64,000 nucleotides of DNA from Gemmatimonadales bacterium (GTDB lineage: Bacteria; Gemmatimonadota; Gemmatimonadetes; Palauibacterales; Palauibacteraceae): the NCBI GenBank assembly GCA_009840115.1, contig VXOJ01000059.1:1-64000 (forward strand), in the 5' to 3' direction. A model generated the notes under the pieces. The model searched no databases and was not told the DNA's origin. It was given only the letters and a program-made list of their open reading frames with translations. Position 1 is the stretch's first letter; every line of letters starts with the position of its first letter. The translations under genes were made by a program, and so were the position numbers. Shown in pieces: positions 11,907 to 37,076 of this stretch.

Positions 11907-11917
11907 GGCGATGCGGA

Positions 11918-14079: not shown

Positions 14080-14768
14080 GATGAACCGGACTCCTCGTTC
14101 GGCGCGGATGTCGCGCAACCGGCGTCCCGTGCCAGGTCCTCCAGGGCGGCGTAGCCTGCGGAGGTGGGCGTGTCCTGACCGAAGGAAAGTCCCTGGAAAT
14201 GGCGGATGAAGTGGCGGCCGGCGGCGGTTTCCATCTCGAGGGCGTAGTCCCCGGGCGTCTTCGACGGGTGGAACGCGACCGTGCCCTTCCCGTCGAGCGT
14301 GAGGAGGAAGCCCCGGTACAGCCCGCTCGCCGCAGGCCGGAACTCCCCCGCGCCCGCGCGCGTTCGGGCGAGGCCCAGCCACTCGCGCGCCGAGGTGGGC
14401 ACGCCATCATCCTCCGGATCCTCGTCCCCCCTCTCCCGCGCGTCCTGCACCCACTTCGGCCCGTGACGCAGCGCTACCGTCCCCAGCGCGATGAGCGCGG
14501 CGAGGACGACGACGAGGGCCAGCACTTCCATGAGCCCGCCGCCCTCATCGAACAGGAAGCGGCGCAGCCAGTCCCACGCATCGGAGAGCGTGTTGGCGAT
14601 CCAATCGAAGATCCGCTGTCGGGGAGACAGGGGTGGGGAAACGAAGTCCGGCTGGGCGAGGATCTCGCGCAACGCGTCGGACATCTCGCCCGGCGAGGGG
14701 AGAGCCTCCGGGGCGGGCGGCGGCTCCTGCCCGCCCGGGAAAGCGGCGGGACCGGGAAGTCGGGTCAC
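14076..14768 (-). CDS. DUF4129 domain-containing membrane protein
   Basis: A 230-residue protein with a single central membrane helix (about residues 80-103) and a C-terminal DUF4129 domain ([20 protein letters not shown] and the YRGFLLTLD and TPGDYA segments). The domain often follows transglutaminase or MoxR/DUF58 genes. GTG 14768 overlaps the preceding gene's stop by 4 bp. Enzymatic activity is not evident; a structural role in an envelope complex is likely. Confidence 0.82.
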
Positions 14769-22533: not shown

Positions 22534-22548
22534 ACTTCGTCGCGAAGT
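22534..22548. promoter_or_regulatory. inverted repeat in the glgA-glgB divergent region
   Basis: ACTTCG-TCG-CGAAGT forms a perfect 6-bp inverted repeat with a 3-nt centre immediately before the assigned glgA start, within the 67-bp space between the divergent glgA and glgB starts. It could be an operator or a hairpin covering the glgA ribosome site. Nothing else proves function. Confidence 0.25.
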
Positions 22549-22600
22549 GGCGAATGTGTGGCTGCAAGGGACGGCGCCCGGTCCGGACGGAGGCGCCGCG

Positions 22601-24610
22601 ATGAGGTGGCAGATCGAACAGAAAAAAACTAGCGGCCCCCCCGGACCTCTCCAAACCCCGGCGCGCGATCCTTCGTTCCCCCTGAGGGCTTCCGACTTCG
22701 AGGCGTTCCACGCGGGACGGGAGTCCGCGCTCCACGATCTCCTCGGCGCGCACCCGTGCGAGCGCGGCGGGGAGGCGGGTACGCGGTTCGCCGTATGGGC
22801 CCCGCGCGCCCGGAGCGTCAGCGTCGTGGGCTCGTTCAACGCGTGGGACGGAACGGCGCATCCCATGTCGCCGGTGGGCGACGCCGGCGTGTGGGAACGC
22901 TTCCTCCCCGGCGTCGGGCCGGGAGATCTGTACAAGTTCCAGGTGGGCTCCGGGACGGACGGCGCCCCGGACGGGCCCTCCCTCGCGGTCGACAAGGCGG
23001 ACCCGCTCGGGCGCGCCGCCGAACTCCGGCCCGGCACCGCGTCGCGCGTGACATCGACCGCCCCGTACGAATGGACGGACGCGGCGTGGGTCGGGACGCG
23101 CCCGGAACGCGCGGCCCCCGATGCCCCCATCTCCATCTACGAGGTCCACCCCGGTTCCTGGCGTCGGCACGCGGACGGCTCGTGGCTGGGGTACCGCGCG
23201 CTCGCCCGGGAGCTGCTGCCCTACGCGGCCGACCTGGGCTTCACCCACATCGAACTCCTCCCGGTCATGGAACACCCGTACGACGGGAGCTGGGGCTACC
23301 AGACGGTCGGGTACTTCGCCCCCACCTCCCGCTACGGCCCTCCCGACGACTTCGCGCATTTCGTGGATGAGGCCCACCGCCTCGGGCTGGGCGTGGTGCT
23401 CGACTGGGTGCCGGGCCACTTCGGCCCCGACCTCCACGGCCTGAGGACGTTCGACGGCGCGCCCCTCTACGAGATGGGGGAGGAACCGCGGGCCGTGCAT
23501 CCCGACTGGGGCACGCTCGCCTTCGATTTCAGCCGGCCGGAGGTCGTCTCTTTCCTCCTCTCGAGCGCGCGCTACTGGATCGAGCGCTATCACGCGGACG
23601 GCCTGCGCGTCGATGCGGTGGCGTCGATGCTCCACCTCGACTACTCACGGGACGAGGGAGAGTGGGAGCCGAACGAACTCGGGGGACGGGAGAACCTCGG
23701 CGCGATCGCCTTCCTCAGGACGCTGTCGGAGATGGTCCACGACCGCTTTCCCGGCGTCCTCCTGTTCGCGGAGGAGAGCAGCGCGTGGCCCGGCGTGACG
23801 GCGCCGGTGGACGGGGGCGGGCTCGGGTTCGACTTCAAGTGGAACATGGGGTGGATGAACGACACGCTCCGGGTGCTGGCGGCCTCGCCGGAGCGGCGGC
23901 CGCGGCTGCACCGGCACCTGACGTTCTCGCTTCACTACGCGCATACGGAACGACATCTCCTTCCCCTGTCGCATGATGAAGTCGTTCACCTAAAGCGATC
24001 TCTCCTCCAGAAGATGCCGGGGACGGACGAGGAGAAGTTCGCCGGCCTCCGCCTCCTCCTCGGCTACATGTGGACGCACCCCGGGGCCAAACTCCTGTTC
24101 ATGGGAGGGGAGATCGGAGAGCGGCGGGAATGGAACGAGGACGGCGCGCTGGACTGGCGTCTGCCGGATCCGTCATCGAACCCCGCGCACCGGGCGCACC
24201 GCGGGCTCCGGCGCTGGGTGCGCGCGCTGAACCGTCTCTACGGGGGCGAACCCGCGCTGCACGCTCTGGACCACGCGCCGGAAGGCTTCGAGTGGCTGGA
24301 CGTGCACGACGCGCAGCGCAGCGTGCTGAGCTACGTGCGCTGGCGGCCGGAGTGGGAGGGGGGCGTCATCGTCGTGGCGAATTTCTCCGCCACCGCGTGG
24401 CCGGGGTATCGGGTCGCCCTTCCCGAAGCCGGGCCGTACCGCGTCCTGCTCGACAGCGGCGACCCGGAGTTCGGGGGGAACGGGCGTGCCACTCCTCCGG
24501 CCCGCGCGGAGGAGGTCTCCCACCACGGGCGTCCCGCCTCGCTCGCCGTCGATCTCCCGCCCCTGGCTTTCCTCGTACTCCAGCGCCCGGAAGCGACGGA
24601 GGACCGCTAG
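22601..24610 (+). CDS. glgB: 1,4-alpha-glucan branching enzyme (GH13)
   Basis: A 669-residue enzyme that introduces alpha-1,6 branches into glycogen. A CBM48 module (about 55-150) precedes the GH13 barrel. The catalytic nucleophile is Asp338 in DGLRVDAV, the acid/base Glu391 in the FAEESSAWPG segment, and the transition-state Asp lies in LSHDEVVH; a C-terminal beta domain ends the chain. It is shorter than the 728-residue E. coli protein because it has one N-terminal beta module instead of two. GGAGG lies 7 nt before ATG 22601. Divergent from glgA. Confidence 0.95.
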   Translation: MRWQIEQKKTSGPPGPLQTPARDPSFPLRASDFEAFHAGRESALHDLLGAHPCERGGEAGTRFAVWAPRARSVSVVGSFNAWDGTAHPMSPVGDAGVWERFLPGVGPGDLYKFQVGSGTDGAPDGPSLAVDKADPLGRAAELRPGTASRVTSTAPYEWTDAAWVGTRPERAAPDAPISIYEVHPGSWRRHADGSWLGYRALARELLPYAADLGFTHIELLPVMEHPYDGSWGYQTVGYFAPTSRYGPPDDFAHFVDEAHRLGLGVVLDWVPGHFGPDLHGLRTFDGAPLYEMGEEPRAVHPDWGTLAFDFSRPEVVSFLLSSARYWIERYHADGLRVDAVASMLHLDYSRDEGEWEPNELGGRENLGAIAFLRTLSEMVHDRFPGVLLFAEESSAWPGVTAPVDGGGLGFDFKWNMGWMNDTLRVLAASPERRPRLHRHLTFSLHYAHTERHLLPLSHDEVVHLKRSLLQKMPGTDEEKFAGLRLLLGYMWTHPGAKLLFMGGEIGERREWNEDGALDWRLPDPSSNPAHRAHRGLRRWVRALNRLYGGEPALHALDHAPEGFEWLDVHDAQRSVLSYVRWRPEWEGGVIVVANFSATAWPGYRVALPEAGPYRVLLDSGDPEFGGNGRATPPARAEEVSHHGRPASLAVDLPPLAFLVLQRPEATEDR

Positions 24611-24671
24611 CAGCCCGCGGCCAGGAGCAAGGTCGAGGCCGCCTTGCCGTCGGGCGTCAGGCTCGGCTATC

Positions 24672-26576
24672 GTGAGCTTCGACGCCGGACGCGCCGTCCA
24701 GGAGGAGAACGTCATCCCCCGCCTGCTGACCCCCGCCACCCGCATCTGCATCGCCCCTTGGCCGAGAAGTGCTCTCGCCATCCTCTTGTCGGCTGCCCTG
24801 TTGGCGGCGGCGTGCGGAACCGACGTCAAGGAAGCCTCGGAAGTCGTGCTCGCACGACACGTCCACACGGACCTCTACGATGCCTACCCGGGCATTCCGT
24901 CGCCCGCCGGCGATCGAGTCGTCTTCGCCGACTACGCCGCGGACAAGAGATCGCTGACGGTCTACGACGTGGTAACCGGGGTCGGCCGCGCGGTGACGAG
25001 CACGCCGGGGGGACGGACACGGGTGACCTGGTCGCCCGACGGTTCGCGCGTCGTTTACGTGGACCGCCAGTCCGACCGTCACGGAGTCTGGGCTCTGGAC
25101 CCGGCCACGGGGCGGGAGTCGCGCATCGTGGATCCCGGGGACGCCCGCATCGACTATCCGCGATTGCTGCCCGACGGGACCGTGACGGCGCTTCGATACG
25201 CGGGTGCCGATACCGCGTGGGTCGCGTATGCGCCGGGAGTCGACCGCGCGATGTCGGTCGTCGTCGACCGTGCCGGCGGATGGGTCGCGCCCGTGCGGTC
25301 GCCCGACGGGCGCGCCGTCGCATACCTTCGCGTCGCGGACGGACGCGCGGCCCTGGCCGTGACGGAGGTCGCGACCGGCGAGACGCGCACGCTTGCCGCC
25401 GACCTCCGGCTGGGGTGGGACCGCCGCGTGGAGTGGTCCCCCACTGGCGGAGCGCTCCTTCTGGCGGCAGCGGGCACCCAGGACTCGCTCTTTGTCGCGT
25501 GGCGCGTGCCGGTGGATGGAGGCCCGGCCGAACGGCTGGAGCGCAGCGGACGTGACGTGCTCGCGGTCACGCCGCTCGCCGACGGTCGCGTCGCGCTCAG
25601 CGTCTACCATACGCGCACTGCGGTGGGCCTCCTTCCGGTGACCGGAGGGGAACCCACGGATGTGACAACTGCAGGGTCCACCGCGGGTTCCACGAGCGCC
25701 TTCCTGCCTTCCTGGCACCCCGGCGGAGAGGCGCTGGGGTTCATCACTTTCTCCTGGCGGCGCGTCCGCATGCCCATCGACTTCGACCTGGGCATCCTCG
25801 ACCTCGACGCGGAGGGCGCCCCGACCGGCACAGTCCGAACACTGCTCTCGGAGGAGGGCGAAGACTACGGCGCCGCGTGGTCGCCCGACGACCGGTGGCT
25901 CGCCTTCCACTCGCACATGGAGCAGAGCGACGACATATGGCTTGTCCCGGCCGGCGGGAGCGAGCGACCCACACGACTCACGCACTTCGGACCGGGCGCG
26001 GACACCGGCGAGCCGGATTGGAGCCCGGACGGGCGGATGCTCGCCTTCAGCAGTCACGGCCCGCCGCTCGAGGGGAACCCGGGGTCCGTGTACGCGGTCG
26101 CCGTCGATCCCGCCACGGGGCGCGCGGCCGCCGACCCCGTTCGAGTCCCACTCGACGGGTTTCAGGGTTACGCCATGGGAGCTCGTTTCTCGCCGGACGG
26201 GGAGCGGCTGGCCTTCTACGGCCGCTCGTTTGAAGACGGACGCGTCACCGTCTACACGGTGCCGGCCGCGGGTGGACGCCCCACGGTCGTGATCTCCTTC
26301 GTCAATGGCGAACCGTACAGCGCGCCCGAGTGGAGCGCCGACGGCGCGTCGCTCTTCTACTCGCGCAACGACGGCGTCGGGCCCTTCCAGGTGTGGCGGG
26401 TGGGCATCTCCACCGGCGCGACGGAACAGGTAACGACCGGCGCGCTCGGCGCACTCCAGCCGAGCGTGAGCCCCGACGGACGCACGCTGGCGGTCACGAT
26501 GCGCGAGGCGGCCATCGAGGTCGTCGCGCTCGCCACCGGTAGCGCAGTCGCCGGAGCTGGGTCCGGCGGTTGGTGA
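24672..26576 (+). CDS. TolB-like beta-propeller lipoprotein
   Basis: A protein of about 630 residues with a lipoprotein signal peptide (lipobox LAAAC) and a long series of WD40/PD40-type repeats of the pattern WSPDGxxxxY/F (for example VTWSPDGSRVVY, PDWSPDGRMLAF). Such propellers are periplasmic scaffolds; no peptidase domain follows. The start is unclear: GTG 24672 is the only standard in-frame start that keeps the full signal peptide. A very good GGAGGAG site at 24701-24707 lies 6 nt before an in-frame ATC at 24714 and 3 nt before a GTC at 24711. It is flanked by a 17-bp near-identical direct repeat and converges on the ATP-grasp genes. Confidence 0.72.
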   Translation: MSFDAGRAVQEENVIPRLLTPATRICIAPWPRSALAILLSAALLAAACGTDVKEASEVVLARHVHTDLYDAYPGIPSPAGDRVVFADYAADKRSLTVYDVVTGVGRAVTSTPGGRTRVTWSPDGSRVVYVDRQSDRHGVWALDPATGRESRIVDPGDARIDYPRLLPDGTVTALRYAGADTAWVAYAPGVDRAMSVVVDRAGGWVAPVRSPDGRAVAYLRVADGRAALAVTEVATGETRTLAADLRLGWDRRVEWSPTGGALLLAAAGTQDSLFVAWRVPVDGGPAERLERSGRDVLAVTPLADGRVALSVYHTRTAVGLLPVTGGEPTDVTTAGSTAGSTSAFLPSWHPGGEALGFITFSWRRVRMPIDFDLGILDLDAEGAPTGTVRTLLSEEGEDYGAAWSPDDRWLAFHSHMEQSDDIWLVPAGGSERPTRLTHFGPGADTGEPDWSPDGRMLAFSSHGPPLEGNPGSVYAVAVDPATGRAAADPVRVPLDGFQGYAMGARFSPDGERLAFYGRSFEDGRVTVYTVPAAGGRPTVVISFVNGEPYSAPEWSADGASLFYSRNDGVGPFQVWRVGISTGATEQVTTGALGALQPSVSPDGRTLAVTMREAAIEVVALATGSAVAGAGSGGW

Positions 26577-26595: not shown

Positions 26596-26616
26596 CTAGC
26601 AGCCCGTGGCTGCTAG
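26596..26616. terminator. hairpin between convergent genes
   Basis: CTAGCAGC-CCGTG-GCTGCTAG is an 8-bp perfect stem with a 5-nt loop, lying after the TolB-like gene and overlapping the stop codon of the convergent ATP-grasp gene. There is no T-run, so it may be a bidirectional weak terminator or an mRNA 3'-end stabiliser. Confidence 0.5.
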
Positions 26617-27830
26617 GCCGCGTAGAGTTGCAGGCGGGTCGCGAACTCGCCGGCGATCTTCTCCAGCGCCTCGAGGTCCGGGTGGCGGAGGAAGATCATC
26701 CCGTCGGAGACGAGCGTGGCCTGCCAGTTCCGCCGGGGCGACCCGACCGGGAGCAGGTCCAGGCTGCACACCCGCTCGCCGTACTCCTGCAGCAGGGGGC
26801 CGAGTCCCTCGATGCGCTGGATCCGGCCCTGTCCGCGCGCCCGCTTGACGATCCAGCAGGCGTTGTACTTCCGTTCCACCGGCTGCGACCACGTCGCGTG
26901 CACGACGCCTTCGGCCCACCCGCGATAGGTGTCGATGTCGCTCGCGAAATTGATGAGATCGACCGTCCGCACGCCGGGCGGGCGAGCGGCGATTTCGCCG
27001 AACACGGCCTCCCCGTCCGCCGTCCGGTACCACTCCATGTGCGTGTAGCCCGTCTCGAATCCGAGCGCGGCGAGCACGGCGAACCCCATCTCCCGTCCGG
27101 GGGCGAGGTCCTCCGCCTCTACGTCGCGCAGCGCGTACGTGATGGGGCTGAGCCACTCGTGCGTCTTCGACTCGAGGGCACGCGGCCAGTAGCGGCAGAT
27201 GTTGTAGTGCGCGACGACGCCTCCGACCGTGACCGTGTCGAAGGTCATGTCCTCGCCCTCGATGAACTCCTCGACCGTCACCTGCGGGACGTGCCGGAGG
27301 GCGGGAAGGACCCGCTCCAGGTCCCGCGCCGAATCGACCCGGTGGGTGTCGGCCGAGCCGGCGCCGGCAACGGGCTTCACGATGAGCGGGAAGCCGACGC
27401 GTTCCGCGACCTCGCGGCACTCGGCGTTGCTCGTGGCCCTTCCGTGCCGGGGCGTCCGGATCCCGGCGCCGTCGAGCACGTCCTTCATCACTTCCTTGTC
27501 GCGGAAGGGGAGCGTCTGCTCGACCGTCGGCCCCGGCAGCTCCAGCATCTCCCGCAGCCGCGCCGCGAGGATCATGAAGGGTTCCCACAGACACTCCACC
27601 CGGTCGATCCGGGTTCTCGCCGCGAACGCGGCGACCTGCCGCATCACGTCCGCCTCATCGGCCAGCGATCTCACCTGCAGGTGGGTGGACACGCTCTCCC
27701 GGGCGATCTCGGGCAGCGCCGCCCCGGGCTGATCGCCCAGGCCGATGACGTTCGCGCCCACCTCCGCGAGCCCGCGCGTGAAATACGTCATCTCGGCCGG
27801 GTACCCCGGCGAAATCATCAATACGTTCAT
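26613..27830 (-). CDS. ATP-grasp carboxylate-amine ligase-like protein (paralogue 1)
   Basis: A 405-residue protein with an N-terminal Rossmann-like pre-ATP-grasp domain (MNVLMISPGYP), an ATP-grasp core starting at FRDKEVMKDVL, the ATP-lysine and glycine loop in PLIVKPVAGAGSADTH, the adenine hinge VEEFIEGE, and a metal/phosphate segment GEIAARPPG. ATP-grasp enzymes activate a carboxylate as acyl phosphate and join it to an amine or thiol. It is paralogous to the next two proteins. Only 19 nt separate it from the upstream ATP-grasp gene, so they form one minus-strand operon. Substrates are not known. Confidence 0.85.
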   Translation of the reverse strand: MNVLMISPGYPAEMTYFTRGLAEVGANVIGLGDQPGAALPEIARESVSTHLQVRSLADEADVMRQVAAFAARTRIDRVECLWEPFMILAARLREMLELPGPTVEQTLPFRDKEVMKDVLDGAGIRTPRHGRATSNAECREVAERVGFPLIVKPVAGAGSADTHRVDSARDLERVLPALRHVPQVTVEEFIEGEDMTFDTVTVGGVVAHYNICRYWPRALESKTHEWLSPITYALRDVEAEDLAPGREMGFAVLAALGFETGYTHMEWYRTADGEAVFGEIAARPPGVRTVDLINFASDIDTYRGWAEGVVHATWSQPVERKYNACWIVKRARGQGRIQRIEGLGPLLQEYGERVCSLDLLPVGSPRRNWQATLVSDGMIFLRHPDLEALEKIAGEFATRLQLYAA

Positions 27831-27849
27831 GGTTCGTTGAGCTGTTCCG

Positions 27850-29073
27850 TTACGTGGCGAGTTCCACCCGTACGCGGGTGATGATCCGCTCCAGCGCCTC
27901 CTCCACGACTTCGGTGCGCGGGTGGCGGACGATGATGTAGCCCTCTCCCTCGTAGGAGGGACTCTGCGGCTGTCCCGCCCGGGGGAGGCGCCACTCGACG
28001 CAGAGGGGCCCGAGGTCCCGCGCGATCTCCTCGATCCCGGCCACCCGCCGCACGGAGCCCCGGCCCTGTCCCCGGAGATAGGCCGCGCCGGCCGCATAGG
28101 GGCGGGGCGGCGGGTCGAACACGTCGAAGACCAGGAGGTGGGCCCAGGCACGGTAGAGGTCGAAGTCGTGCGCCTGCGAGATCAGCGTGACGAACTGGGC
28201 GCCCGGCGGCCGGGCTCCGACTTCGGAGACCGTCACCGAACCGTCGGGGCGCCGGAACCACTCCATGTGGCTGAGCCCCGTCTCCATCCCGAGCGCATCG
28301 AGCGCCGGTCCGGCGACGCGCCGGATCTCCTCGTACCGGGGCGAATCGACCTCCCGCGGAAGGAGGACGCACCACTGGATCCACGGCTCGCGCAGCACCT
28401 CGAGCGGCGAAGGCAGGTAGTGGTTGATCGAATGCCAGACGACGCGTCCGCCGATCGAGACCGCGTCGAAGGAGTGTTCCTCGCCGACGACGAACTCCTC
28501 GACGAGCGTCGGCCGTTCGGCGCTCGGCCGCGACATCGCGATCGCCGAGCGCAATTGCCCCGGCGTTTCGACGCGGAACGTGCCGCGGGCGCCGGAACCG
28601 GCCGGCGGCTTCACGATGAGCGGGAAGCCCGTCGCATCCGAGAAGGCCGTCGCCTCGCTCTCGTCCCGGACCAGCGCGTGCCGGGCGCAGGGCAGGCCGT
28701 GCGCCCGGAGCACGTCCTTCATGCGGGACTTGTCACGGAAGTTGTCCGCGGCGTCCGCGCCCATCCCCGGGATGCCGAGCGCATCACGCAGTTCCCCGAG
28801 CGGCACCTGAAGCTCCTCGAGCGCGCCCAGCAGACGGTCGATCCCCCCGAGTTCGGCGGAGAGGCTCCGCAGCCCGATGTGGATGCCCTCCGCCGACAGC
28901 GCGTCGTCGACCCGGACGTGCGCCGCGATGCTCCGCCGCAGCGAGGCCGGCGTTCGCTCGGGCGGTTCCTGCGTCACGACGCCGAGGCGCACGCCGGCGA
29001 GCCCCGCGGCGGCTTCCAGAAAGCGCAGCGTGGCAGGGAGATAGAACGGGGCGACGAAAGCGACGTTGGGCAT
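27850..29073 (-). CDS. ATP-grasp carboxylate-amine ligase-like protein (paralogue 2)
   Basis: A 407-residue ATP-grasp protein with the same architecture as its neighbours: an MPNVAFVAPFY N-terminal strand, FRDKSRMKDVL at the core entry, PLIVKPPAGSGARGTF as the lysine/glycine loop, VEEFVVGEEHSFD, and SEVGARPPG as the metal/phosphate motif. GGAAG stands 4 nt before ATG 29073. It is the first gene of the minus-strand pair and diverges from paralogue 3 across 124 bp. Likely an amide- or ester-forming ligase; substrate unknown. Confidence 0.85.
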   Translation of the reverse strand: MPNVAFVAPFYLPATLRFLEAAAGLAGVRLGVVTQEPPERTPASLRRSIAAHVRVDDALSAEGIHIGLRSLSAELGGIDRLLGALEELQVPLGELRDALGIPGMGADAADNFRDKSRMKDVLRAHGLPCARHALVRDESEATAFSDATGFPLIVKPPAGSGARGTFRVETPGQLRSAIAMSRPSAERPTLVEEFVVGEEHSFDAVSIGGRVVWHSINHYLPSPLEVLREPWIQWCVLLPREVDSPRYEEIRRVAGPALDALGMETGLSHMEWFRRPDGSVTVSEVGARPPGAQFVTLISQAHDFDLYRAWAHLLVFDVFDPPPRPYAAGAAYLRGQGRGSVRRVAGIEEIARDLGPLCVEWRLPRAGQPQSPSYEGEGYIIVRHPRTEVVEEALERIITRVRVELAT

Positions 29074-29144
29074 GGATCTTCCAGGTTGCCGCGGCGGGCC
29101 GGACGGCCGCCGCCGGACGGGCTGGCGTTTGAGCGCAGGGACTG

Positions 29145-29150
29145 TACTAT
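29145..29150 (+). promoter_or_regulatory. candidate -10 box for the plus-strand ATP-grasp operon
   Basis: TACTAT lies about 48 nt before the ATG of paralogue 3 in the 124-bp divergent region. No good -35 box is found at 16-18 bp; TTGAGC at 29129-29134 is too close. Weak call. The same region has a GC-rich hairpin-like stretch near 29082-29116. Confidence 0.25.
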
Positions 29151-29197
29151 GTCGGGCCCTCAAAGTGAAGTTTTTCCCCCGAGTTGTTGGCGAAGCA

Positions 29198-30421
29198 ATG
29201 CACGTCGTGTTCGTCGAACCCCTGTTTCCCGGAAACCAGAAGGACTTCGTGCGCGGTCTGCACGAAGTCGGCGCCGAGGTGTCCGCGGTGGGCGAAGCCC
29301 CGCTCGAGGCGCTCGGCTCCGACCTGCACGGGTGGCTCACCTGCTACGAGCAGGTCGGCTCCGTGTGCGACGAGGGCGCCCTCGCGCACGCCGTGCACGA
29401 GATCCATCGGCGGCGGCCCGTGGATCGCCTCGAGGCTACGGTCGAAGCGCACATCCTTCCGGTCGCCCGCGTGCGGGAAGCCGCCGGGCTCGCCGGGACG
29501 TCGGTGAGGACCGCGCACCTGTGCCGCGACAAGCCGGCGATGAAGGAGGCCCTTCGCGATGCGGGGATCGCGACCGCCCAGTCCATGGGTGGAGGCGACG
29601 CGGAGGAGATCGCCGGTTTCGGTCGGAGGGTCGGTTATCCGCTCATCGTGAAGCCTCGCGCCGGGGCCGGCGCATCGGGCACGTATCGCGTCGAAGATGA
29701 GGCGCAGCTCGCGGCCCTGCTCCCCCGCCTCGGCCTGGGGCAGGGCGCCGAAGTCGCCGTCGAGGAGTTCGTGGACGGCCACGAGGCCTTCTACGACACG
29801 CTGACGGTGGGCGGCACGGTGGTCCACGATTTCATGACCCACTACTACCCGAACGTGCTCGAGGCCATGCGAACGCGGGAGGTGTCTCCCCAGTTCATCG
29901 CCACGAACCGGATCGACACGGCCGGCGCCTACGCGGAGGTTCGGGAACTCGGACAGCGGGTCATCGACGCGCTCGAGATCGGGACTTCCGCCACCCACAT
30001 GGAATGGTTCTTCGGCGACAAGGGGCTCAAGTTCTCCGAAATCGGCTGCCGTCCGCCCGGCGTGCGGGCCTGGGACCTGTACGGGGCGGCAAACGAAATG
30101 GACGTCTACCGCGAATGGGCATCCTGCATCGTGCACGGCCGAAAGTTGCAGGACGCATCGCGCCGGTACTCCGCCGGGATCGTGACGCTGCGGCCCGACA
30201 ACGATGGACGGATCGCGGGGTATGAGGGTCTGGAGAAGGTGGAAGCCCGATTCGGGGAGTGGATCATCGATACGCACCTGCCGCCGCCCGGCACGCCCAC
30301 GCAGCCCGTGGAGGCCGGATACATGGCGAACGCCTGGCTCCGGCTGCGGCACCCGGACTACGACGAACTGCGCCACATGCTCGACGCCGTCGGACGGTGG
30401 GTGAAGGTGCGCGCCGCATGA
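29198..30421 (+). CDS. ATP-grasp carboxylate-amine ligase-like protein (paralogue 3)
   Basis: A 407-residue ATP-grasp protein matching the two divergent paralogues: MHVVFVEPLFPG start, CRDKPAMKEAL at the core entry, PLIVKPRAGAGASGTY loop, VEEFVDGHEAFYD hinge, THMEWFF, and SEIGCRPPG. The shared T/S-H-M-E-W-F/Y and E-I/V-A/G-A/C-R-P-P-G motifs mark the three as a subfamily. It leads the plus-strand series; its stop overlaps the next start (ATGA). The ribosome site before ATG 29198 is weak. Likely joins a carboxylate to an amine in an unknown pathway. Confidence 0.85.
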   Translation: MHVVFVEPLFPGNQKDFVRGLHEVGAEVSAVGEAPLEALGSDLHGWLTCYEQVGSVCDEGALAHAVHEIHRRRPVDRLEATVEAHILPVARVREAAGLAGTSVRTAHLCRDKPAMKEALRDAGIATAQSMGGGDAEEIAGFGRRVGYPLIVKPRAGAGASGTYRVEDEAQLAALLPRLGLGQGAEVAVEEFVDGHEAFYDTLTVGGTVVHDFMTHYYPNVLEAMRTREVSPQFIATNRIDTAGAYAEVRELGQRVIDALEIGTSATHMEWFFGDKGLKFSEIGCRPPGVRAWDLYGAANEMDVYREWASCIVHGRKLQDASRRYSAGIVTLRPDNDGRIAGYEGLEKVEARFGEWIIDTHLPPPGTPTQPVEAGYMANAWLRLRHPDYDELRHMLDAVGRWVKVRAA

Positions 30422-31413
30422 GGGGGTCCAGGAGGCGTCGGGCGACCGACGACGCCGGATCTCCGTCGCCGCTCGTTCTTCTGGGTCCGCGAGGGGGCGG
30501 ACTCGCGCTCCGCGACGTCGTAGGGGAGCTGGAGGCCGGAGGCGCGCTGTCGCCGGGCGCGCGGATCGCGGCCATCACCGCCGGTTGGCGGGACCGGGAG
30601 GCGAACGAAGGACTCATCGATCCCCGCCTCGCGGACCGTGTTGTGGATCTCGAACTTTACCGGCGCTCCGACCGGATCGCCGAGGCCGACGCGGAACTCG
30701 CGCGTGCGCACCGCGAGACCCGGGACCGGCTCAAGGCCCTGCGACGCGCCTACAACCTGCGCCTCCACGGTCTCATCGAGGCGCACCGGCGGCTGGGCGA
30801 ACTGCGGGGGGACGCGTCGGTGCTCCGGGCCGAGCGCGGCGAAGCGCTGGCCGCCATTCGGCGCCTCGATGCGCGGCACCTGGACCGCGTGGTCGAGATC
30901 CGGTCGGAATTCGAGCGCCGCACGACCCTCCCGGAGCGCGACGCGGTGCGATCGCAACGGCGCGAGGTCGCCGCGCGGCTCGAGGGCACGGAGGCGATCG
31001 TGCTGGAGGGCGGGCACGTCGGGAACCTGCTGAGCCGCCTGCGCCTGTTCGGGGGACGGAAGCTCCTGGACGGACGCCCCGTGATCGCCCGGTCGGCCGG
31101 CGCCATGGTGCTGACGGAGCGCGTCGTGCTCTTTCACGATCGGCCGCCGTGGGGCGAGGGTCATCCCGAGGTCTTCGACGCGGGGCTCGGGATCGCCGAA
31201 GGGCTCGTCGCCCTGCCGCACGCTTCCGCCCGCCTCGCACTGGACGATCGAACGCGGGGCGCGCGGCTTACGGCCCGCTTCTCCCCCGCCTCCTGCGTCC
31301 TCCTGGACCCGGGCCATCGAATCGATCGGGCCGGCGACGGCTGGAGCGGCAGCGAAGATCTCGAACGCCTCGACGCGGCGGGCCGACGCGTCCCCTTCTG
31401 TACGGCGGCGTAG
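30418..31413 (+). CDS. peptidase S51 / cyanophycinase-like (class I GATase-fold) protein
   Basis: A 331-residue protein. The N-terminal VLLGPRGGG strand-loop and the C-terminal half, with EGGHVGNLLSRLR and ARSAGAMVL (candidate nucleophile Ser226), resemble the nucleophile elbow of peptidase E and cyanophycinase (S51). A histidine in the following LPHAS segment could complete the site. A helical Arg/Glu-rich insert occupies about residues 75-180 and is unusual for the family. It overlaps the ATP-grasp gene by 4 bp. S51 enzymes cut aspartyl or cyanophycin-type dipeptides; this assignment is by motif only and may instead be a non-peptidase relative. Confidence 0.55.
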   Translation: MRGSRRRRATDDAGSPSPLVLLGPRGGGLALRDVVGELEAGGALSPGARIAAITAGWRDREANEGLIDPRLADRVVDLELYRRSDRIAEADAELARAHRETRDRLKALRRAYNLRLHGLIEAHRRLGELRGDASVLRAERGEALAAIRRLDARHLDRVVEIRSEFERRTTLPERDAVRSQRREVAARLEGTEAIVLEGGHVGNLLSRLRLFGGRKLLDGRPVIARSAGAMVLTERVVLFHDRPPWGEGHPEVFDAGLGIAEGLVALPHASARLALDDRTRGARLTARFSPASCVLLDPGHRIDRAGDGWSGSEDLERLDAAGRRVPFCTAA

Positions 31414-31420
31414 TCCGGCC

Positions 31421-32617
31421 ATGCGGTTCGATCCCCACGCCCGGGTCCAGCGACAAGACGAGTCCATGCCGCGTTCGCCCGCGATCGCGGCGCTCGAGGC
31501 GCGGCTCGCATCCGGTTCCGGCGGGGCGGATGCGGTGGGCGCGTTTCTCGACGCGAATGCGTTCCCGCTCGCCGAGCCTCCCCTCTACACCTTCGTGTAC
31601 CGGGGCCATGCCGACGCCGTGCGGCTCCGGCACTGGGTGCACGGACTCCAGACCTCGTCGCCCTTCCGCCGCCTGGACGGAACGGATCTCTGGTGCTACA
31701 CGCTCGAACTCCCCGACGAGTCCCGGGTGGAGTACAAGATCGAGGTGGTCGCCCGCGGCCGCGCGGAGTGGATCGAGGACCCGCTGAACCCCCAGCGCGC
31801 CCGCGATCCGTTCGGCGCGAACTCCGTCGTGCAGGCGCGGGGCTATGAGATCCCCGACTGGGCCCGCGAGGGCGAGGAGGTCCGGCGCGGCCAGATGGAC
31901 GAACTCGCGGTCGAGAGCGAGACGTTCGGGTCCGCGCGGCATGTGACCGTGTACCGTCCGGCGGAGTTCCGCGCCAACCGGCGCTACCCGCTGCTCATCG
32001 TGCACGACGGCGGGGACTACGTCGAATACGCCGGCCTGAGGCAGGTGCTCGACCAACTGATCGATCGCTTCGAGATCCCCCGGATGATCGTCGCGCTGCT
32101 GCACCCGGGCGACCGGATGTCGGAATACGCGGCGGATCCGGCGCACGCGCGGTTCGTCGCCGAGGAGTTGCTCCCGCGCCTCGAACGCGAATATCCACTC
32201 CTCCCGGACCCCGGGTCGCGCGGCCTCATGGGCGCGAGCCTCGGCGCGGTCGCCTCCTTCCACGCCGCGCTCGAATACCCCGGTCGCTTCGGCCGCATGC
32301 TGCTGCAGTCGGGCTCTTTCCTCTTCACGGACATCGGCGCCAACGAGAGCGGACCCGTGTTCGACCGCATCGTCGACATGATGAACGCGTACCGGGCGGC
32401 GCCGACCGCCATCGCCGAGAAGGCGTTCGTCTCGGTGGGCGTCTACGAACCGCTGGTCTCGGAGAATCGGGCCCTGATCCCGGTCCTCCGCCGCGGCGGC
32501 GCGGACGTGCGCTTCGTCGAGTCGCGCGACGGCCACAACTGGGAGAACTGGCGGGACCGCCTGCGCGAGGGGCTGTCGTGGCTCTTCCCGGGTCCGCTCT
32601 GGATGGTCTACGAATGA
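31421..32617 (+). CDS. enterochelin esterase-like alpha/beta hydrolase
   Basis: A 398-residue protein with an N-terminal CBM48/IroD-like beta domain (about 45-135) and an esterase-D-type hydrolase domain. The nucleophile is Ser273 in GASLGA; the His is in DGHNWENW near residue 370, typical of Fes/IroE-like esterases. Such enzymes hydrolyse or transfer acyl esters of small molecules. The start is ATG 31421 or ATG 31466 (15 codons shorter). The stop overlaps the fourth ATP-grasp gene by 4 bp, which links their functions. Confidence 0.85.
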   Translation: MRFDPHARVQRQDESMPRSPAIAALEARLASGSGGADAVGAFLDANAFPLAEPPLYTFVYRGHADAVRLRHWVHGLQTSSPFRRLDGTDLWCYTLELPDESRVEYKIEVVARGRAEWIEDPLNPQRARDPFGANSVVQARGYEIPDWAREGEEVRRGQMDELAVESETFGSARHVTVYRPAEFRANRRYPLLIVHDGGDYVEYAGLRQVLDQLIDRFEIPRMIVALLHPGDRMSEYAADPAHARFVAEELLPRLEREYPLLPDPGSRGLMGASLGAVASFHAALEYPGRFGRMLLQSGSFLFTDIGANESGPVFDRIVDMMNAYRAAPTAIAEKAFVSVGVYEPLVSENRALIPVLRRGGADVRFVESRDGHNWENWRDRLREGLSWLFPGPLWMVYE

Positions 32618-33891
32618 CGGCCGCGGCGGCGTCGGCGCGCGAGGTTACGCGCCGCATCGGCCTCTCGCTCGGGGCGGACCTCTGCTGGCCCGTCGCCTAC
32701 CGCGCGATCCTCGAGCGGCTGAACCCCCGGATCCCGTCCTCCGACGGCACGATCCGGTTCCATCTCGAGGACGTCACGATCGAACCCTTCGACCTGCAGC
32801 AGAAGAGGAAGTACGACGTCGTCATCGACCGCCTCACGCACTGGTATTTCCCGACGCGGGAGTGGATCAAGAAGTCCGTGATCATAGACGGGCTCTACGT
32901 GTTCAACAATCCGTGGAGCGTCCAGTCGATGGAGAAGCATTCCACCTACTGCGCGATGATGAGGCTGGGTCTCCCGGTTCCGCGGACGTGGCTCCTCCCG
33001 CCCAAGTCCTACGACCCGCAGGACGATCTGGCCGTCACCCTGAAACGGTACGCGCGGCTCTTCGATCTTCCCGCCGTGGCCGGCGACCTGGGCTATCCCG
33101 TGTTCATGAAGCCCTACGACGGCGGAGGCTGGCGCGGCGTGTCACGGATCGACGACGACGAGGCGCTGGGCGCCGCCTACGACGAGAGCGGCAAGTTCGT
33201 CATGCACCTCCAGCAGGGGGTGGAGCACGACCGTTTCGTCCGCTGCATCGGACTGGGCCCTCAGACGCGCGCCGTCCTCTACGACCCCGGCGCCCCCGCG
33301 CACGACCGCTACACCGTCGAACGCGACCACCTCGAGCCCGCCGACGCCGGCACGATCCGGGACACGACGCTCACGATCAACGCGTTCTTCGGGTGGGACT
33401 TCAACTCGTGCGAGGTGCTCCGCAGCGGCGGACGGTGGATGCCGATCGACTTCGCGAACCCCTGCCCGGATTCGCAGGTCACGTCGCTCCACTACCACTT
33501 CCCGTGGCTCATCAAGGCGAATCTGCGCTGGTCCCTCTTCTGCGCGGCGACCCGGCGCGGGATGCGCGTCAACCTCGACTGGCAGCCGTTCTTCGATGCC
33601 TGCCGTCCCGGGATGTCGGTGGGCGAGAGGGTTCGAGCCTGCGCCGGGATCGCGGAGGCCAGGTTCGAGACCGACCGGTTCGTGGAGTTCTGCGAAACGC
33701 ATCTCGCGGAACTCGACGAGGTGGCCGACGAGTTCTTCGGCAGCGAGGCGGCCCGCGACGCGGTGCGCGCGAAGGTGGCTTCGCTCTACCCCGATCACGA
33801 GATCGAGGAGTTCACCGCGCTCTTCTTCGACCGCATACAGGCGGCCCGCCGGGAGGAACCCCCCGGCGCCGTGCCGATTCTCGCCTCATGA
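32614..33891 (+). CDS. ATP-grasp protein of a second, divergent type (RimK/GshB-like)
   Basis: A 425-residue protein unlike the three paralogues. It has a Rossmann-like start, a KHSTYCAMMRLGLPVPRTW entry helix, the ATP-lysine and glycine loop GYPVFMKPYDGGGWRGV, and a C-terminal PIDFANPCPDS metal-site segment. The C-terminal 80 residues are helical and charged. ATG 32614 overlaps the esterase stop and its own stop overlaps the next esterase start (both ATGA), so the three are translationally coupled. It probably forms an amide or peptide bond; substrate unknown. Confidence 0.8.
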   Translation: MTAAAASAREVTRRIGLSLGADLCWPVAYRAILERLNPRIPSSDGTIRFHLEDVTIEPFDLQQKRKYDVVIDRLTHWYFPTREWIKKSVIIDGLYVFNNPWSVQSMEKHSTYCAMMRLGLPVPRTWLLPPKSYDPQDDLAVTLKRYARLFDLPAVAGDLGYPVFMKPYDGGGWRGVSRIDDDEALGAAYDESGKFVMHLQQGVEHDRFVRCIGLGPQTRAVLYDPGAPAHDRYTVERDHLEPADAGTIRDTTLTINAFFGWDFNSCEVLRSGGRWMPIDFANPCPDSQVTSLHYHFPWLIKANLRWSLFCAATRRGMRVNLDWQPFFDACRPGMSVGERVRACAGIAEARFETDRFVEFCETHLAELDEVADEFFGSEAARDAVRAKVASLYPDHEIEEFTALFFDRIQAARREEPPGAVPILAS

Positions 33892-34640
33892 AACTCAACG
33901 CAAGCTGGTGGTCGCATCGTCTCGGCCAGGAGGTCAATGTCGCGCGCTGGGGCGAGGTCGGCGTGCCCTTCCTCATGTTCCCCACTGCCGGAGGAGACGC
34001 GGAGGAGATCGAGCGCTTCCTCGTCATCGACACGGTGGCGGACTACCTGGCGGACGGCCGGATCAAGGTCTATTCGTGCGACAGCGTGGCGGGCCGCGTC
34101 ATGCTCGGACGGGAGGGGACTCCCGAACACCGCATGTCGGTCCTCGACCGGTTTCAGGAGTTCGTCTACCGCGAGTTCGTCCCCATGATCCGGGAGGACT
34201 GCAACGATCCCGGGATCGAGGTCATCGTGGCGGGCTCCTCGATCGGAGCGTTCAACGCGCTCGCCATGCTGTGCCGGTTCCCCGACGCCTTCTCGCACGC
34301 CGTGTGCATGAGCGGCACGTACGACCTCCAGCGCTTCCTGAAACACGACACCGGGGCCGAAGCGAGAGCGACGGGCGACTTCTACCGCGCCTCGCCCGTG
34401 CACCACCTGCCGCAGCTCGCGGGCGAGACCCTCGACCGGCTGCGTCAGCGCTTCGTCCTCCTCGCTTCCGGGCGCGGGAGGGCGGAGGACATCGACGAAT
34501 CCTGGCGCGCGGCCTCGCTCCTGGGGCGGAAGGGCGTGCCGAACCGGATGGACGACTGGGGCGAGGAGTGGCACCACGACTGGCCCACGTGGCGCCACAT
34601 GCTCCTCCGCTACCTCGACGAGCTGCTTCCGCCCGCGTAG
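33888..34640 (+). CDS. small esterase-family alpha/beta hydrolase
   Basis: A 250-residue esterase-D-like hydrolase with nucleophile Ser118 in GSSIGA, a characteristic FLMFPTAGGD oxyanion-region strand, and a C-terminal EEWHHDWPTWRHML helix that probably carries the catalytic His. No signal peptide, so cytoplasmic. It overlaps the ATP-grasp gene by 4 bp and ends the plus-strand series before the convergent glgP. It may act as an acyl or peptidyl transferase or thioesterase-like editing enzyme of the ligase pathway. Confidence 0.8.
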   Translation: MKLNASWWSHRLGQEVNVARWGEVGVPFLMFPTAGGDAEEIERFLVIDTVADYLADGRIKVYSCDSVAGRVMLGREGTPEHRMSVLDRFQEFVYREFVPMIREDCNDPGIEVIVAGSSIGAFNALAMLCRFPDAFSHAVCMSGTYDLQRFLKHDTGAEARATGDFYRASPVHHLPQLAGETLDRLRQRFVLLASGRGRAEDIDESWRAASLLGRKGVPNRMDDWGEEWHHDWPTWRHMLLRYLDELLPPA

Positions 34641-34666: not shown

Positions 34667-36823
34667 TCAGGCATCCCCGCGCAGCGATGGGACGTAGAAG
34701 TCCCGCGCGTAGTCCCGCACCATGCGGCCCGCCGTGAATCGCGCGCCGGCCACCTCGATCGCTCGCCGCGCATGTGCGAGCCAGCCGGCCGGGGCGTCAT
34801 CCCCGGAGCCCGCTCCGATCCGGTCGTAGTAGAGGGGGATGACGTCCTCCTCCAGGAGCCGGAAGAGGTGCTCCGCGTCGTGTTCGTCCACCTCCTCCTC
34901 CGTCGCCGTGGCGGGGGCCGGCGGGATGATCCACCCGTTGTCCCCCTCGAACCCCTCCTCCCACCAGCCGTCCGCGGTCGCGAGCTGGGGGACGCCGTTG
35001 AGGGCGGCCTTCATCCCGCTCGTCCCGCTCGCCTCAAGCGGGACCCGGGGGAGGTTGAGCCACAGGTCGACGCCCTCGACGAGACCGTGCGCCGCATGAA
35101 GTCCGTAGTTCTCGAGGAAGGCGACCCTGCCCTCGAACTCCGGATCGCGCGTGTGCTCATAGACGCGCTGGAGGATGCGCTTGCCGTCGTCGTCCCGCGG
35201 GTGCGCCTTCCCGGCGAAGACCAGTTGCACGGGACGGGCGGTGTCCGAGAGAAGCTCCAGGAGGCGGTCGCGATCGCGGAAGATGAGGTCCGCGCGCTTG
35301 TAGGTCGCGAAGCGCCGCGCGAATCCGATCGTGAGCGGCCCGGGGCTCATGAGCGTGCCGGCTCCGGCCAGGTGAGCCGACTCCGGCCAGTGGCCGGGCC
35401 ACCTGCGCCTGGCCTCGTCCCGCATGAGATCGAGGAGCCGGAGTTTCAGCCGCTGTCGCACCCGCCACAGCGCCTCCGCGGGAACGTCGCGCACCCCGCG
35501 CCACTCAGCTTCGTCTCCCGGACCGTGTCGCCAGCCGTCCGGGAGCCATTCGTCCAGGAGGCCGGCGATGTCGTTGCTCATCCACGTGGCGAGGTGGACC
35601 CCGTTCGTCACGTGCCGGATCGGCACCTCTCCGGCCGCCCGGTCCTCCCAGAGGCCGCGCCAGATTTTACGGCTCACGCGCCCGTGTCGCGCGGAAACGC
35701 CGTTGACTCGCCGCGAGAGTCGGATCGCCGCCGCCGTCATGTGAAACCGGTCCTGCGCCTCGTCATCCGGATGGAGACCGAGTCCCAGCAGCTCCTCGCG
35801 GTGGGGGATCTCCTCCCAGAACGTCTCTCCGATCCATTCACGCATCTGTGCGTGGGAGAACACGTCATGGCCCGCGGAGACGGGCGTATGCGTCGTGAAC
35901 ACCGTCGAGGCGCGGACCCGGGACACCGCGTCCGCGAAGGACCCGCCACCCGTCATCAGCCGACGCACGCGCTCCACCATCATGAACGCCGCGTGTCCCT
36001 CGTTCGCGTGCCACGCTCCGGGCTCGATCCCGAGCGCGGCGAGCACGCGCACGCCGCCGACGCCGAGGATGGCTTCCTGCCGCAGCCGGTGATCCGCGCC
36101 GCCCGCGTAGAGTTGGTGGGAGAGGCCGCGGTCCACCGGGTCGTTCTCCTCGAGGTCCGTGTCGAGGAGGTACAGCGAGACGCGGCCGACGCGCAGCCTC
36201 CAGGCCCCGATATGGATGCGGCGGCCCCCGCCGCGGATCGAGGCGAGCCACGCGACGCCATCCGCGCCCCGCAGCCGCTCCAGCGGCGTCAGGTCGGGGT
36301 CGAGCGGGTCGTCCGCGTCTTCCTGCCAGCCGTCCGGCCCCAGCGTCTGGTCGAAGTAGCCGTGCGCGTACATCAGCCCGACGCCGACGAGGGGGACGCC
36401 CAGTTCCGACGCCGCCTTGAGGTGGTCGCCGGCGAGCACGCCGAGTCCCCCGGAGTAGATGGGGATGGATTCGTGCAACGCGAATTCCGCGCAGAAGTAC
36501 GCCACGGGGCCCTCGGCGAGCCCGGGGTATCTCCGGGCGAACCAGGTGGATGCCGCGTTCGCCCCGCCGCCGGACACCCGCTCCAGCGCATGGCACGCCG
36601 CGTCGTACCGGCGCAGGAAGCCGTCGTCAGCGGCCAGTTCCCGCCACCGCGTTTCCCCGACGGTTCGCAATAGCGCCACGGGGTTGTGGCGCGTACGGCG
36701 CCATAGCGGCGGATCGATAGCCCGGAAGAGGGCCGGGGCCTCCGGGTTCCACGTCCACGAGAGGTCGTTCGCGAGTTCCGGCAGCCGCCCGAAGCGGCCG
36801 GGGATCTTGTCGTCTGGACCCAC
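34667..36823 (-). CDS. glgP: alpha-glucan (glycogen) phosphorylase, short GT35 type
   Basis: A 718-residue PLP-dependent phosphorylase that releases glucose-1-phosphate from alpha-1,4-glucans. The N-terminal DUF3417-like segment (FGRLPELANDLSWTWNP) and the length mark the short bacterial/archaeal subfamily, which lacks the regulatory sites of the 800-residue type. The PLP-binding lysine is Lys605 in ASGTSGMKAALNG. GTG 36823 is preferred since AGGAG and AGAGGG precede it; a TTG at 36883 would add 20 unconvincing residues. Together with glgA, glgB and GH57 it completes a glycogen cycle. Confidence 0.92.
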   Translation of the reverse strand: MGPDDKIPGRFGRLPELANDLSWTWNPEAPALFRAIDPPLWRRTRHNPVALLRTVGETRWRELAADDGFLRRYDAACHALERVSGGGANAASTWFARRYPGLAEGPVAYFCAEFALHESIPIYSGGLGVLAGDHLKAASELGVPLVGVGLMYAHGYFDQTLGPDGWQEDADDPLDPDLTPLERLRGADGVAWLASIRGGGRRIHIGAWRLRVGRVSLYLLDTDLEENDPVDRGLSHQLYAGGADHRLRQEAILGVGGVRVLAALGIEPGAWHANEGHAAFMMVERVRRLMTGGGSFADAVSRVRASTVFTTHTPVSAGHDVFSHAQMREWIGETFWEEIPHREELLGLGLHPDDEAQDRFHMTAAAIRLSRRVNGVSARHGRVSRKIWRGLWEDRAAGEVPIRHVTNGVHLATWMSNDIAGLLDEWLPDGWRHGPGDEAEWRGVRDVPAEALWRVRQRLKLRLLDLMRDEARRRWPGHWPESAHLAGAGTLMSPGPLTIGFARRFATYKRADLIFRDRDRLLELLSDTARPVQLVFAGKAHPRDDDGKRILQRVYEHTRDPEFEGRVAFLENYGLHAAHGLVEGVDLWLNLPRVPLEASGTSGMKAALNGVPQLATADGWWEEGFEGDNGWIIPPAPATATEEEVDEHDAEHLFRLLEEDVIPLYYDRIGAGSGDDAPAGWLAHARRAIEVAGARFTAGRMVRDYARDFYVPSLRGDA

Positions 36824-37076
36824 GTCCCTCTTTGTCTCCTTGCTTCCGCGGGGGTTCTCGTCACGACCGGGGCTGGGGCGCAACGGGGCGCGGGAGCGCC
36901 CGGAGCGCGAACGAAGTTACCGCACCGTGACGCGCGCGACACACCCCGGCGCCGACTCGTCCCGCGACCCCGATCCGCCCCGTCTCGTTCCCCTACCCGT
37001 TGCAGCCTCAGCGGCGCGGGGCCAAACTCAGCCGGCCTCCAGTGTCGTGCTCACTCGCCGCTAACGGGGACAGCGC

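Follow-up and report, generated by a model that had tools for sequence, protein, structure and literature searches.

In the usual account of bacterial glycogen, GlgC, GlgA and GlgB carry out synthesis and GlgP carries out breakdown. Genes for these enzymes, together with glycoside hydrolase family 57 (GH57) genes, make up the described glycogen operons, and such genes also surround the subject of this study, a set of seven ligase and hydrolase genes (A to G) found in a 64,000-nucleotide stretch of DNA from a Gemmatimonadales bacterium (contig VXOJ01000059.1, positions 1 to 64,000; hereafter "the window") and in many of its relatives. To our knowledge, the seven genes belong to no known glycogen operon. 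We report that the set recurs across phyla and that its A, B and C genes are often placed beside GlgA.

For A, B and C, the closest described systems are the L-amino acid ligases BacD, RizA and BL00235, which are of similar length and give the best profile matches; unlike these, the genes described here are three paralogues that recur in a cross-phylum set, often beside GlgA, and they have Ala or Gly in place of the metal-site Asn. The enterobactin esterase Fes and the CBM48-CE1 feruloyl/acetyl-xylan esterases share with E a two-domain arrangement and invariant Ser, His and acidic residues, whereas E is 24% identical to Fes (structure 3mga), scores below the NCBIfam cut-off and has ligase and glycogen genes as its neighbors. 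Cyanophycinase and peptidase E, both of the S51 type, have a fold in common with D, which keeps the Ser at the nucleophile position; unlike these enzymes, D carries a helical insertion (residues ~92-169), has a Pfam score below the cut-off and shows the expected catalytic His in 22 of 37 aligned sequences. At the level of the whole neighborhood, ATP-grasps in the company of peptidases and hydrolases are said to have been surveyed by Iyer and colleagues in 2009, who reportedly predicted that such amidoligase neighborhoods make novel peptides. We regard the set as a neighborhood of the amidoligase-and-hydrolase type, in which the novel element would be its association with glycogen. No description of the seven-gene set or of its link to glycogen was found in the available parts of the open-licence literature, which included portions of PMC4431377, PMC5934393, PMC8939145 and PMC6920838.

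Arrangement and recurrence of the seven genes

A previous reading of the window from its letters alone (the sequence-only reading) had placed seven open reading frames here, and this placement was borne out for all of them:

A, 26613-27830, minus strand: ATP-grasp ligase of the L-amino-acid-ligase type, 405 amino acids (P0001), from Pfam, the A/B/C profile and invariant residues
B, 27850-29073, minus strand: ATP-grasp ligase of the L-amino-acid-ligase type, 407 amino acids (P0002), from Pfam, profile, tree and residues
C, 29198-30421, plus strand: ATP-grasp ligase of the L-amino-acid-ligase type, 407 amino acids (P0003), from Pfam, profile, tree and residues
D, 30418-31413, plus strand: S51-fold protein (cyanophycinase/peptidase E-like) with a helical insertion at ~92-169, 331 amino acids (P0004), from the model and its structural match
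E, 31421-32617 (alternative start 31466), plus strand: two-domain esterase with a Fes-type N-terminal domain and a PF00756 domain, 398 amino acids (P0005)
F, 32614-33891, plus strand: divergent ATP-grasp, Ddl/RimK-like, 425 amino acids (P0006), from residues and weak profile matches
G, 33888-34640, plus strand: alpha/beta hydrolase of the PF00756 type, 250 amino acids (P0007), from Pfam and residues

The description of these genes as mostly joined by 4-bp overlaps applies to three of the five same-strand junctions (C/D, E/F and F/G), while D and E are separated by 7 bp, A and B by 19 bp, and B and C are divergent with 124 bp between them, the largest gap among the seven. Because A and B run opposite to C to G, the set is not one operon. 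No precursor-peptide gene lies between the seven genes, these gaps being where one was sought, and a ribosomally synthesized and post-translationally modified peptide (graspetide) with an in-cluster precursor is ruled out by their small size.

To assess recurrence, other genomes were scanned with an A/B/C alignment, and the best 80 of at least 466 confirmed loci, ranked by similarity to B, were analyzed, with presence of a gene defined as a tblastn match of at least 60 bits; these B-anchored loci lean to close relatives of B, include one from the window's own genus (L072), and are in many cases cut by contig ends. Besides the anchor B (80 loci), A was found on 65, F on 46, G on 44, C on 43, E on 40 and D on 39 loci. 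All seven genes were present together on 26 of the 80 loci, representing six named phyla (by title, Planctomycetota 11, Gammaproteobacteria 4, Gemmatimonadota 3 including L072, Acidobacteriota 2, Actinomycetota 2, Krumholzibacteriota 1, and 3 titled "bacterium"). When the open reading frames of 83 loci (the 80, the window, L029 and L034) were clustered into families, the eight most recurrent families were the seven genes, with B as the anchor, and GlgA; the next family, GlgC, occurred in 10 loci. A scripted screen of the window and the 80 loci found no gene fusions that would name partners, and inspection by eye of the gaps and flanks of four loci with all seven genes and no glycogen gene in the stretch (L074, L075, L081 and L096) found no extra common gene.

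A second sample, scored by the same 60-bit tblastn criterion, was anchored on E, which was sought in evenly drawn genomes of three phyla, each group including its centre genome, with the searches centred on genomes taken from the 80 loci. E matches were found in 29 of 199 Planctomycetota genomes at 1e-60 (25 of them below 1e-150) and, at 1e-100, in 5 of 198 Actinomycetota and 7 of 199 Acidobacteriota genomes. D adjoins E in all 37 strong E loci, seven of which (planctomycete L165, L166, L167, L169 and L179; actinobacterial L194 and L195) were already among the 80; the four weaker E matches (L188-L191), counted apart, showed D in 0/4, GlgA in 0/4 and GlgB in 1/4. All seven genes occurred on 10 of the 25 planctomycete E loci, each with GlgA. 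Genes of the A/B/C type were detected at 1e-60 in 19 of 20 E-bearing genomes (three or more matches in 15), which were hand-picked from the E matches; in ten of them the stretch read around E held no A/B/C gene. The corresponding number was 1 of 20 (G352, with GlgA ~2 kb away) among E-less genomes, picked from those without a match at 1e-60 in Planctomycetota and at 1e-100 in Actinomycetota and Acidobacteriota. Protein distances for all 28 pairs among the seven proteins and GlgA were correlated over 25 loci (r from 0.30 to 0.73, with at most 2 of 500 permutations as high), a correlation to which shared host descent, not controlled for, would also contribute.

Closer to the window, a search for F gave matches in 20 of 60 genomes (own genome included) and strong matches in 13 of 16 same-genus genomes; among the remaining three, G013 had a weak match, with none of the seven genes shown there, and two had no match. 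Around strong F matches in the genus, eight stretches of 14-20 kb were read: seven preserve the complete set in order and have glgP and glgB next to it or close by, and in L027, the eighth, no A turned up in the 14 kb read. A 5.4-kb contig of G004 showed B to F. In the phylum as a whole, A/B/C-type genes were found at 1e-60 in 56 of 298 genomes, mostly two per genome.

Overall, the proposal that the genes form a conserved, uncharacterized system is upheld, both by their joint presence on the 26 loci and by the catalytic residues, which are conserved in all of the proteins except D (see below). Scattering in relatives, which the sequence-only reading took as evidence against such a system, holds in part: in two Myxococcales genomes (G318 and G319) the set is split into F-G-B and A-C-D-E (the latter at L152 and L153), and the three same-genus genomes mentioned above lack a strong F match. 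Five Myxococcales loci (L090, L105, L107, L114 and L139) showed F, B and G without A, C, D and E in the stretch. An arrangement confined to the genus is ruled out by recurrence in other phyla, and a chance neighborhood is ruled out by the family clustering, the 80-locus counts, the E-anchored loci, the co-occurrence and the distances.

Genes of the set adjoin GlgA far above chance

The A/B/C genes adjoin GlgA far above chance. At least one glycogen gene was found on 50 of the 80 B-anchored loci (GlgA on 44, GlgC on 12, GlgP on 6 and GlgB on 4) and on 22 of the 26 loci with all seven genes, 19 of which had GlgA; on 23 of the 44 GlgA loci, GlgA is the divergent neighbor of B, with less than 300 bp between the matches. 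As a background, 16 strong GlgA matches were found in 20 genomes totalling 111.6 Mb, which by arithmetic gives an expectation of approx. 0.3% per 20 kb. Among the E-anchored loci, GlgA was present on 13/25 planctomycete, 1/5 actinobacterial and 0/7 acidobacterial loci, and any glycogen gene on 16/25, 1/5 and 0/7 (17/37 overall). One of these, from an acidimicrobial genome (L194), shows the order C B A D E GlgC GlgA G F GlgB GH57 GlgP.

Of the 16 E-bearing genomes with both GlgA and an A/B/C gene, 14 have the two at most 5.4 kb apart, clear GlgA matches being those with E below 1e-20 (14 of 17 if the weak G607 match is counted) and membership of these genomes' loci in the 80 having been checked for E loci only; in G392 and G512 the two genes are on different contigs. 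As these genomes include some in which the E locus lies elsewhere (e.g., G788, G762 and G484), it is the A/B/C part of the set that follows GlgA.

In the window, the seven genes sit within a glycogen locus, as shown by GH57 genes, GlgA and GlgB to their left and GlgP to their right; this placement was absent from the sequence-only reading. The order is two GH57 genes, GlgA, GlgB, a PD40 gene, A to G and GlgP:

17562-19577, minus strand: GH57 protein with alpha-amylase/4-alpha-glucanotransferase domains
19574-20998, minus strand: GH57 protein with DUF3536
21013-22632 (start approximate), minus strand: GlgA, glycogen synthase of family GT5
22562-24610 (start approximate), plus strand: GlgB, branching enzyme with CBM48
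24486-26576 (start uncertain), plus strand: PD40 beta-propeller (TolB-like) gene, between glgB and A
34667-36883, minus strand: GlgP, alpha-glucan phosphorylase (DUF3417 and PF00343)

The window GlgA is the sole strong PF08323 match in its own genome, with one fragmentary match elsewhere, and the PD40 gene had no match in any of the 15 stretches searched. By eye, a transporter-like membrane protein resembling a sodium:alanine symporter lies beside GlgP (37077-38774, plus strand), and positions 8798-14410 of the window hold a MoxR-type ATPase and DUF58-like set adjoining an RDD-type membrane gene.

Variants of the set occur in other members of Gemmatimonadota. In G054, which belongs to another family, the row consists of an F-like gene, a circularly permuted (CP) ATP-grasp, GCS2, C26, a G-like gene, B, A, another PF00756 esterase and a GH57 protein, with GlgA ~7 kb beyond A. 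In L115, L117, L140 and L146, C, D and E were not found in the stretch; the CP-ATP-grasp, GCS2 and another PF00756 esterase are present instead, C26 is also present in two of these loci, and GlgA or GH57 genes adjoin. GlgA and/or GH57 genes were seen with B, A, the other PF00756 esterase and G-like and F-like genes in these four loci as well as in L141 and L034; the CP-ATP-grasp and GCS2 come next except in L141, where the contig ends, and the order differs in L034. The variant set is also carried by Roseisolibacter sp. H3M3-2, whose record is not labelled as a metagenome-assembled genome. In our reading, the variant loci may parallel the main set, again combining ligases, a glutamine amidotransferase (GATase)-like hydrolase fold and an esterase. 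A second recurrent set, in which F-like and G-like genes stand with GCS2 and a CP-ATP-grasp, was observed in L032 (6776-12043) and L035 (6238-11299), with Peptidase C26 beside it in L035 and ~5 kb off in L032; glycogen genes gave no match in these two 20-kb stretches.

Predicted activities of the encoded proteins

ATP-grasps make acyl phosphates and then amides or esters. Three of the four ATP-grasps of the set pass the Pfam cut-off of 27 bits (A 28.4, B 44.6 and C 38.4), and the A/B/C profile matched, as the top three of 86 solved matches, RizA (4wd3; 6.3e-36), BL00235 (3vot; 5.6e-27) and BacD (9.1e-21). By these closest solved relatives, A, B and C would be enzymes of the L-amino-acid-ligase type with a putative dipeptide-forming activity. 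Residues K155, E193, E271, E284 and R288 (B numbering) are invariant in 176 of 176 A/B/C rows. In a 94-row tree restricted to loci that have A, B and C together, the three fall into separate groups (support 100/99 or better), each of which spans phyla; the order of branching among the three groups is uncertain, as the program warned of meeting long branches. A, B and C thus appear to be three old paralogues, and, since they have been kept apart over several phyla, they probably carry out three different ligations.

F scored below every curated cut-off (Pfam 12.9 bits vs. 24; best NCBIfam match LysX with 24.3 vs. 275.6) and has weak profile matches to Ddl/RimK. For residue counts in F and the three hydrolase-type proteins, near-full-length rows were chosen from the listed loci (29 of 41 for F, 36 of 37 for D, 35 of 36 for E and 24 of 27 for G), each with the window protein added; as the rows left out include one F sequence containing a stop codon and the distant F-like ones, these counts favor intact, closer genes. 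The nucleotide-metal site of F (K166, E267, D279 and N282) is kept in 30 of 30 rows and is still invariant when three distant rows are added. None of the four ligases (405-425 amino acids) has a Pfam match to a Mur-ligase domain.

Enzymes of the PF00756 family cut or transfer esters, and both E (86.9 bits) and G (35.6 bits) pass the cut-off of 22 for this family. The model of E (mean predicted local distance difference test score [pLDDT] 91) has Fes (3mga) as its best structural match (Z 33.7, root-mean-square deviation [rmsd] 3.0, 348 residues aligned), ahead of the CBM48-CE1 esterase 7b6b (Z 27.7, rmsd 5.0, 317 aligned). E scores 119.5 against the NCBIfam enterochelin esterase model (cut-off 222). 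S273, E343, D370 and H372 of E are kept in 36/36 rows, and S118, H230 and D231 of G in 25/25. The gene content given by the sequence-only reading, i.e., four ATP-grasps, an S51-like protein and two esterase-D-type hydrolases, stands for the ATP-grasps, for the S51 fold of D and for PF00756 membership of E and G, and needs amending for E, which is not simply of the esterase-D type as Fes is its best match.

D scores 19.4 bits against Pfam S51 (PF03575), under the cut-off of 23.9. Its model (mean pLDDT 91), in which the long helical insertion is apparent, matches cyanophycinase 7uqw (VIA, Z 15.8, rmsd 3.2, 205 aligned) and the aspartyl dipeptidase (peptidase E) 1fy2 (Z 15.1, rmsd 3.3, 192 aligned). 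Ser226, at the nucleophile position, and H240 are each kept in 36 of 37 rows. The suggestion of a cyanophycin-like storage polymer found no positive support, and cyanophycin metabolism was rejected: none of the seven proteins, among which the synthetase was sought, is of the cyanophycin synthetase type, and the His expected in D, whose score is also below the S51 cut-off, is not conserved.

A putative pathway and its alternatives

The best account of these data is an unrecognized, widely inherited pathway that would assemble and trim an amino-acid-derived conjugate, its putative product, for use in glycogen metabolism. A, B, C and F would activate carboxylates as acyl phosphates, yielding an amino-acid-derived amide or ester conjugate; the Fes-like two-domain serine esterase E and the hydrolase G would cut or transfer ester bonds of this conjugate, and D may bind or trim its acidic amide part. 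That the seven genes represent a single pathway, with a product directly involved in the synthesis, marking or breakdown of glycogen, seems to us an evenly balanced proposition.

Several observations weigh against this interpretation. In the stretch read, 30 of the 80 B-anchored loci showed no glycogen gene; the same holds for 9/25 planctomycete, 4/5 actinobacterial and 7/7 acidobacterial E loci. In two actinobacteria (G715 and G617), E occurs with other genes of the set but no strong GlgA match (some such genomes are drafts), G317 and G607 have weak GlgA matches only, and none was found in G327, where A, B, C, D and E were seen, or in G321, where A and B were seen; G901 has E and no A/B/C match. 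Pseudonocardia sp. TRM90224, whose record is not labelled as a metagenome-assembled genome, carries A to F together with a distant G-like gene, and its GlgA match is weak. GlgA is also common in genomes without E, and the tie is therefore positional rather than one of presence. With regard to the proteins, the third position of E-x-N, the usual metal-binding motif of the ATP-grasp superfamily, is Gly or Ala instead of Asn in 176 of 176 A/B/C rows; as PurK and PurT likewise depart from this motif, activity of A, B and C is not excluded by its loss. H268 of D, the catalytic His expected from our reading of the alignment, is found in 22 of 37 rows, replaced by Asp in 11 and absent from 15 in all, which makes a peptidase role of D doubtful. 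Glucan binding by the N-terminal domain of E is unproven: this domain scores as Enterochelin_N (PF11806; 25.2 bits, under the cut-off of 27.1), and CBM_48 is not among the Pfam matches of E at an E-value of 0.1, although CBM48-CE1 structures match the whole E model.

For a conjugate pathway acting in glycogen metabolism, the likeliest single form is a product that comes to sit on the glucan, either decorating it as an ester or serving as its starter, which we put forward tentatively. Stated fully, the glycogen of the carriers (Gemmatimonadota, Planctomycetota, Acidobacteriota, Myxococcota, Krumholzibacteriota, and some Actinomycetota and Pseudomonadota) might bear, or start on, a non-ribosomal amino-acid conjugate made by A/B/C and F and released by E and G, a possibility to which we give limited credence.

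A free effector is a possible alternative, if on the unlikely side: the set would make a small soluble peptide, or an amide of an amino acid, which would control GlgA or GlgC, link glycogen to nitrogen status and be degraded by E, G and D. The specific pairing with GlgA, as the divergent neighbor of B at <300 bp on 23/44 loci, and the recurrence of GlgC (12/80 loci) are consistent with such a target, and ligases plus hydrolases would suit the making and turnover of a signal. On the other hand, seven proteins are many for one signal, two esterases, one of them Fes-like, suggest ester bonds in a larger molecule, and some sets lie far from glycogen genes. Rather unlikely is an independent peptide or osmolyte-like metabolite, whose genes would be found near glycogen genes only as co-inherited storage or stress functions. 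This would fit the loci without a glycogen gene in the stretch (30/80, 9/25, 4/5 and 7/7) and the F-like/G-like set with GCS2 and CP-ATP-grasp in L032 and L035, where glycogen genes gave no match, but it sits poorly with the presence of GlgA at no more than 5.4 kb from an A/B/C gene in 14 of 16 genomes, including those with E elsewhere (G788, G762 and G484). The protein tag named in the sequence-only reading drew no direct evidence for or against it. Ligation of amino acids onto a protein as a tag, e.g., onto GlgA itself or a storage-granule protein, is highly improbable: F is weakly RimK-like, RimK is described as adding glutamates to ribosomal protein S6 (PMC4431377), and GlgA is the commonest neighbor, but A/B/C resemble ligases of free amino acids rather than RimK, and any other likely acceptor recurs less often than GlgA.

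The repeated occurrence of these ligases and esterases next to GlgA, across several phyla, suggests that the present picture of bacterial glycogen may lack a step or modification. The set names a pathway of seven conserved proteins, and the glycogen of carriers could be examined for attached or accompanying amino-acid material. If the carriers' glycogen does bear or start on such a conjugate, bacteria would have a template-free equivalent of glycogen that is primed by a protein or chemically modified.

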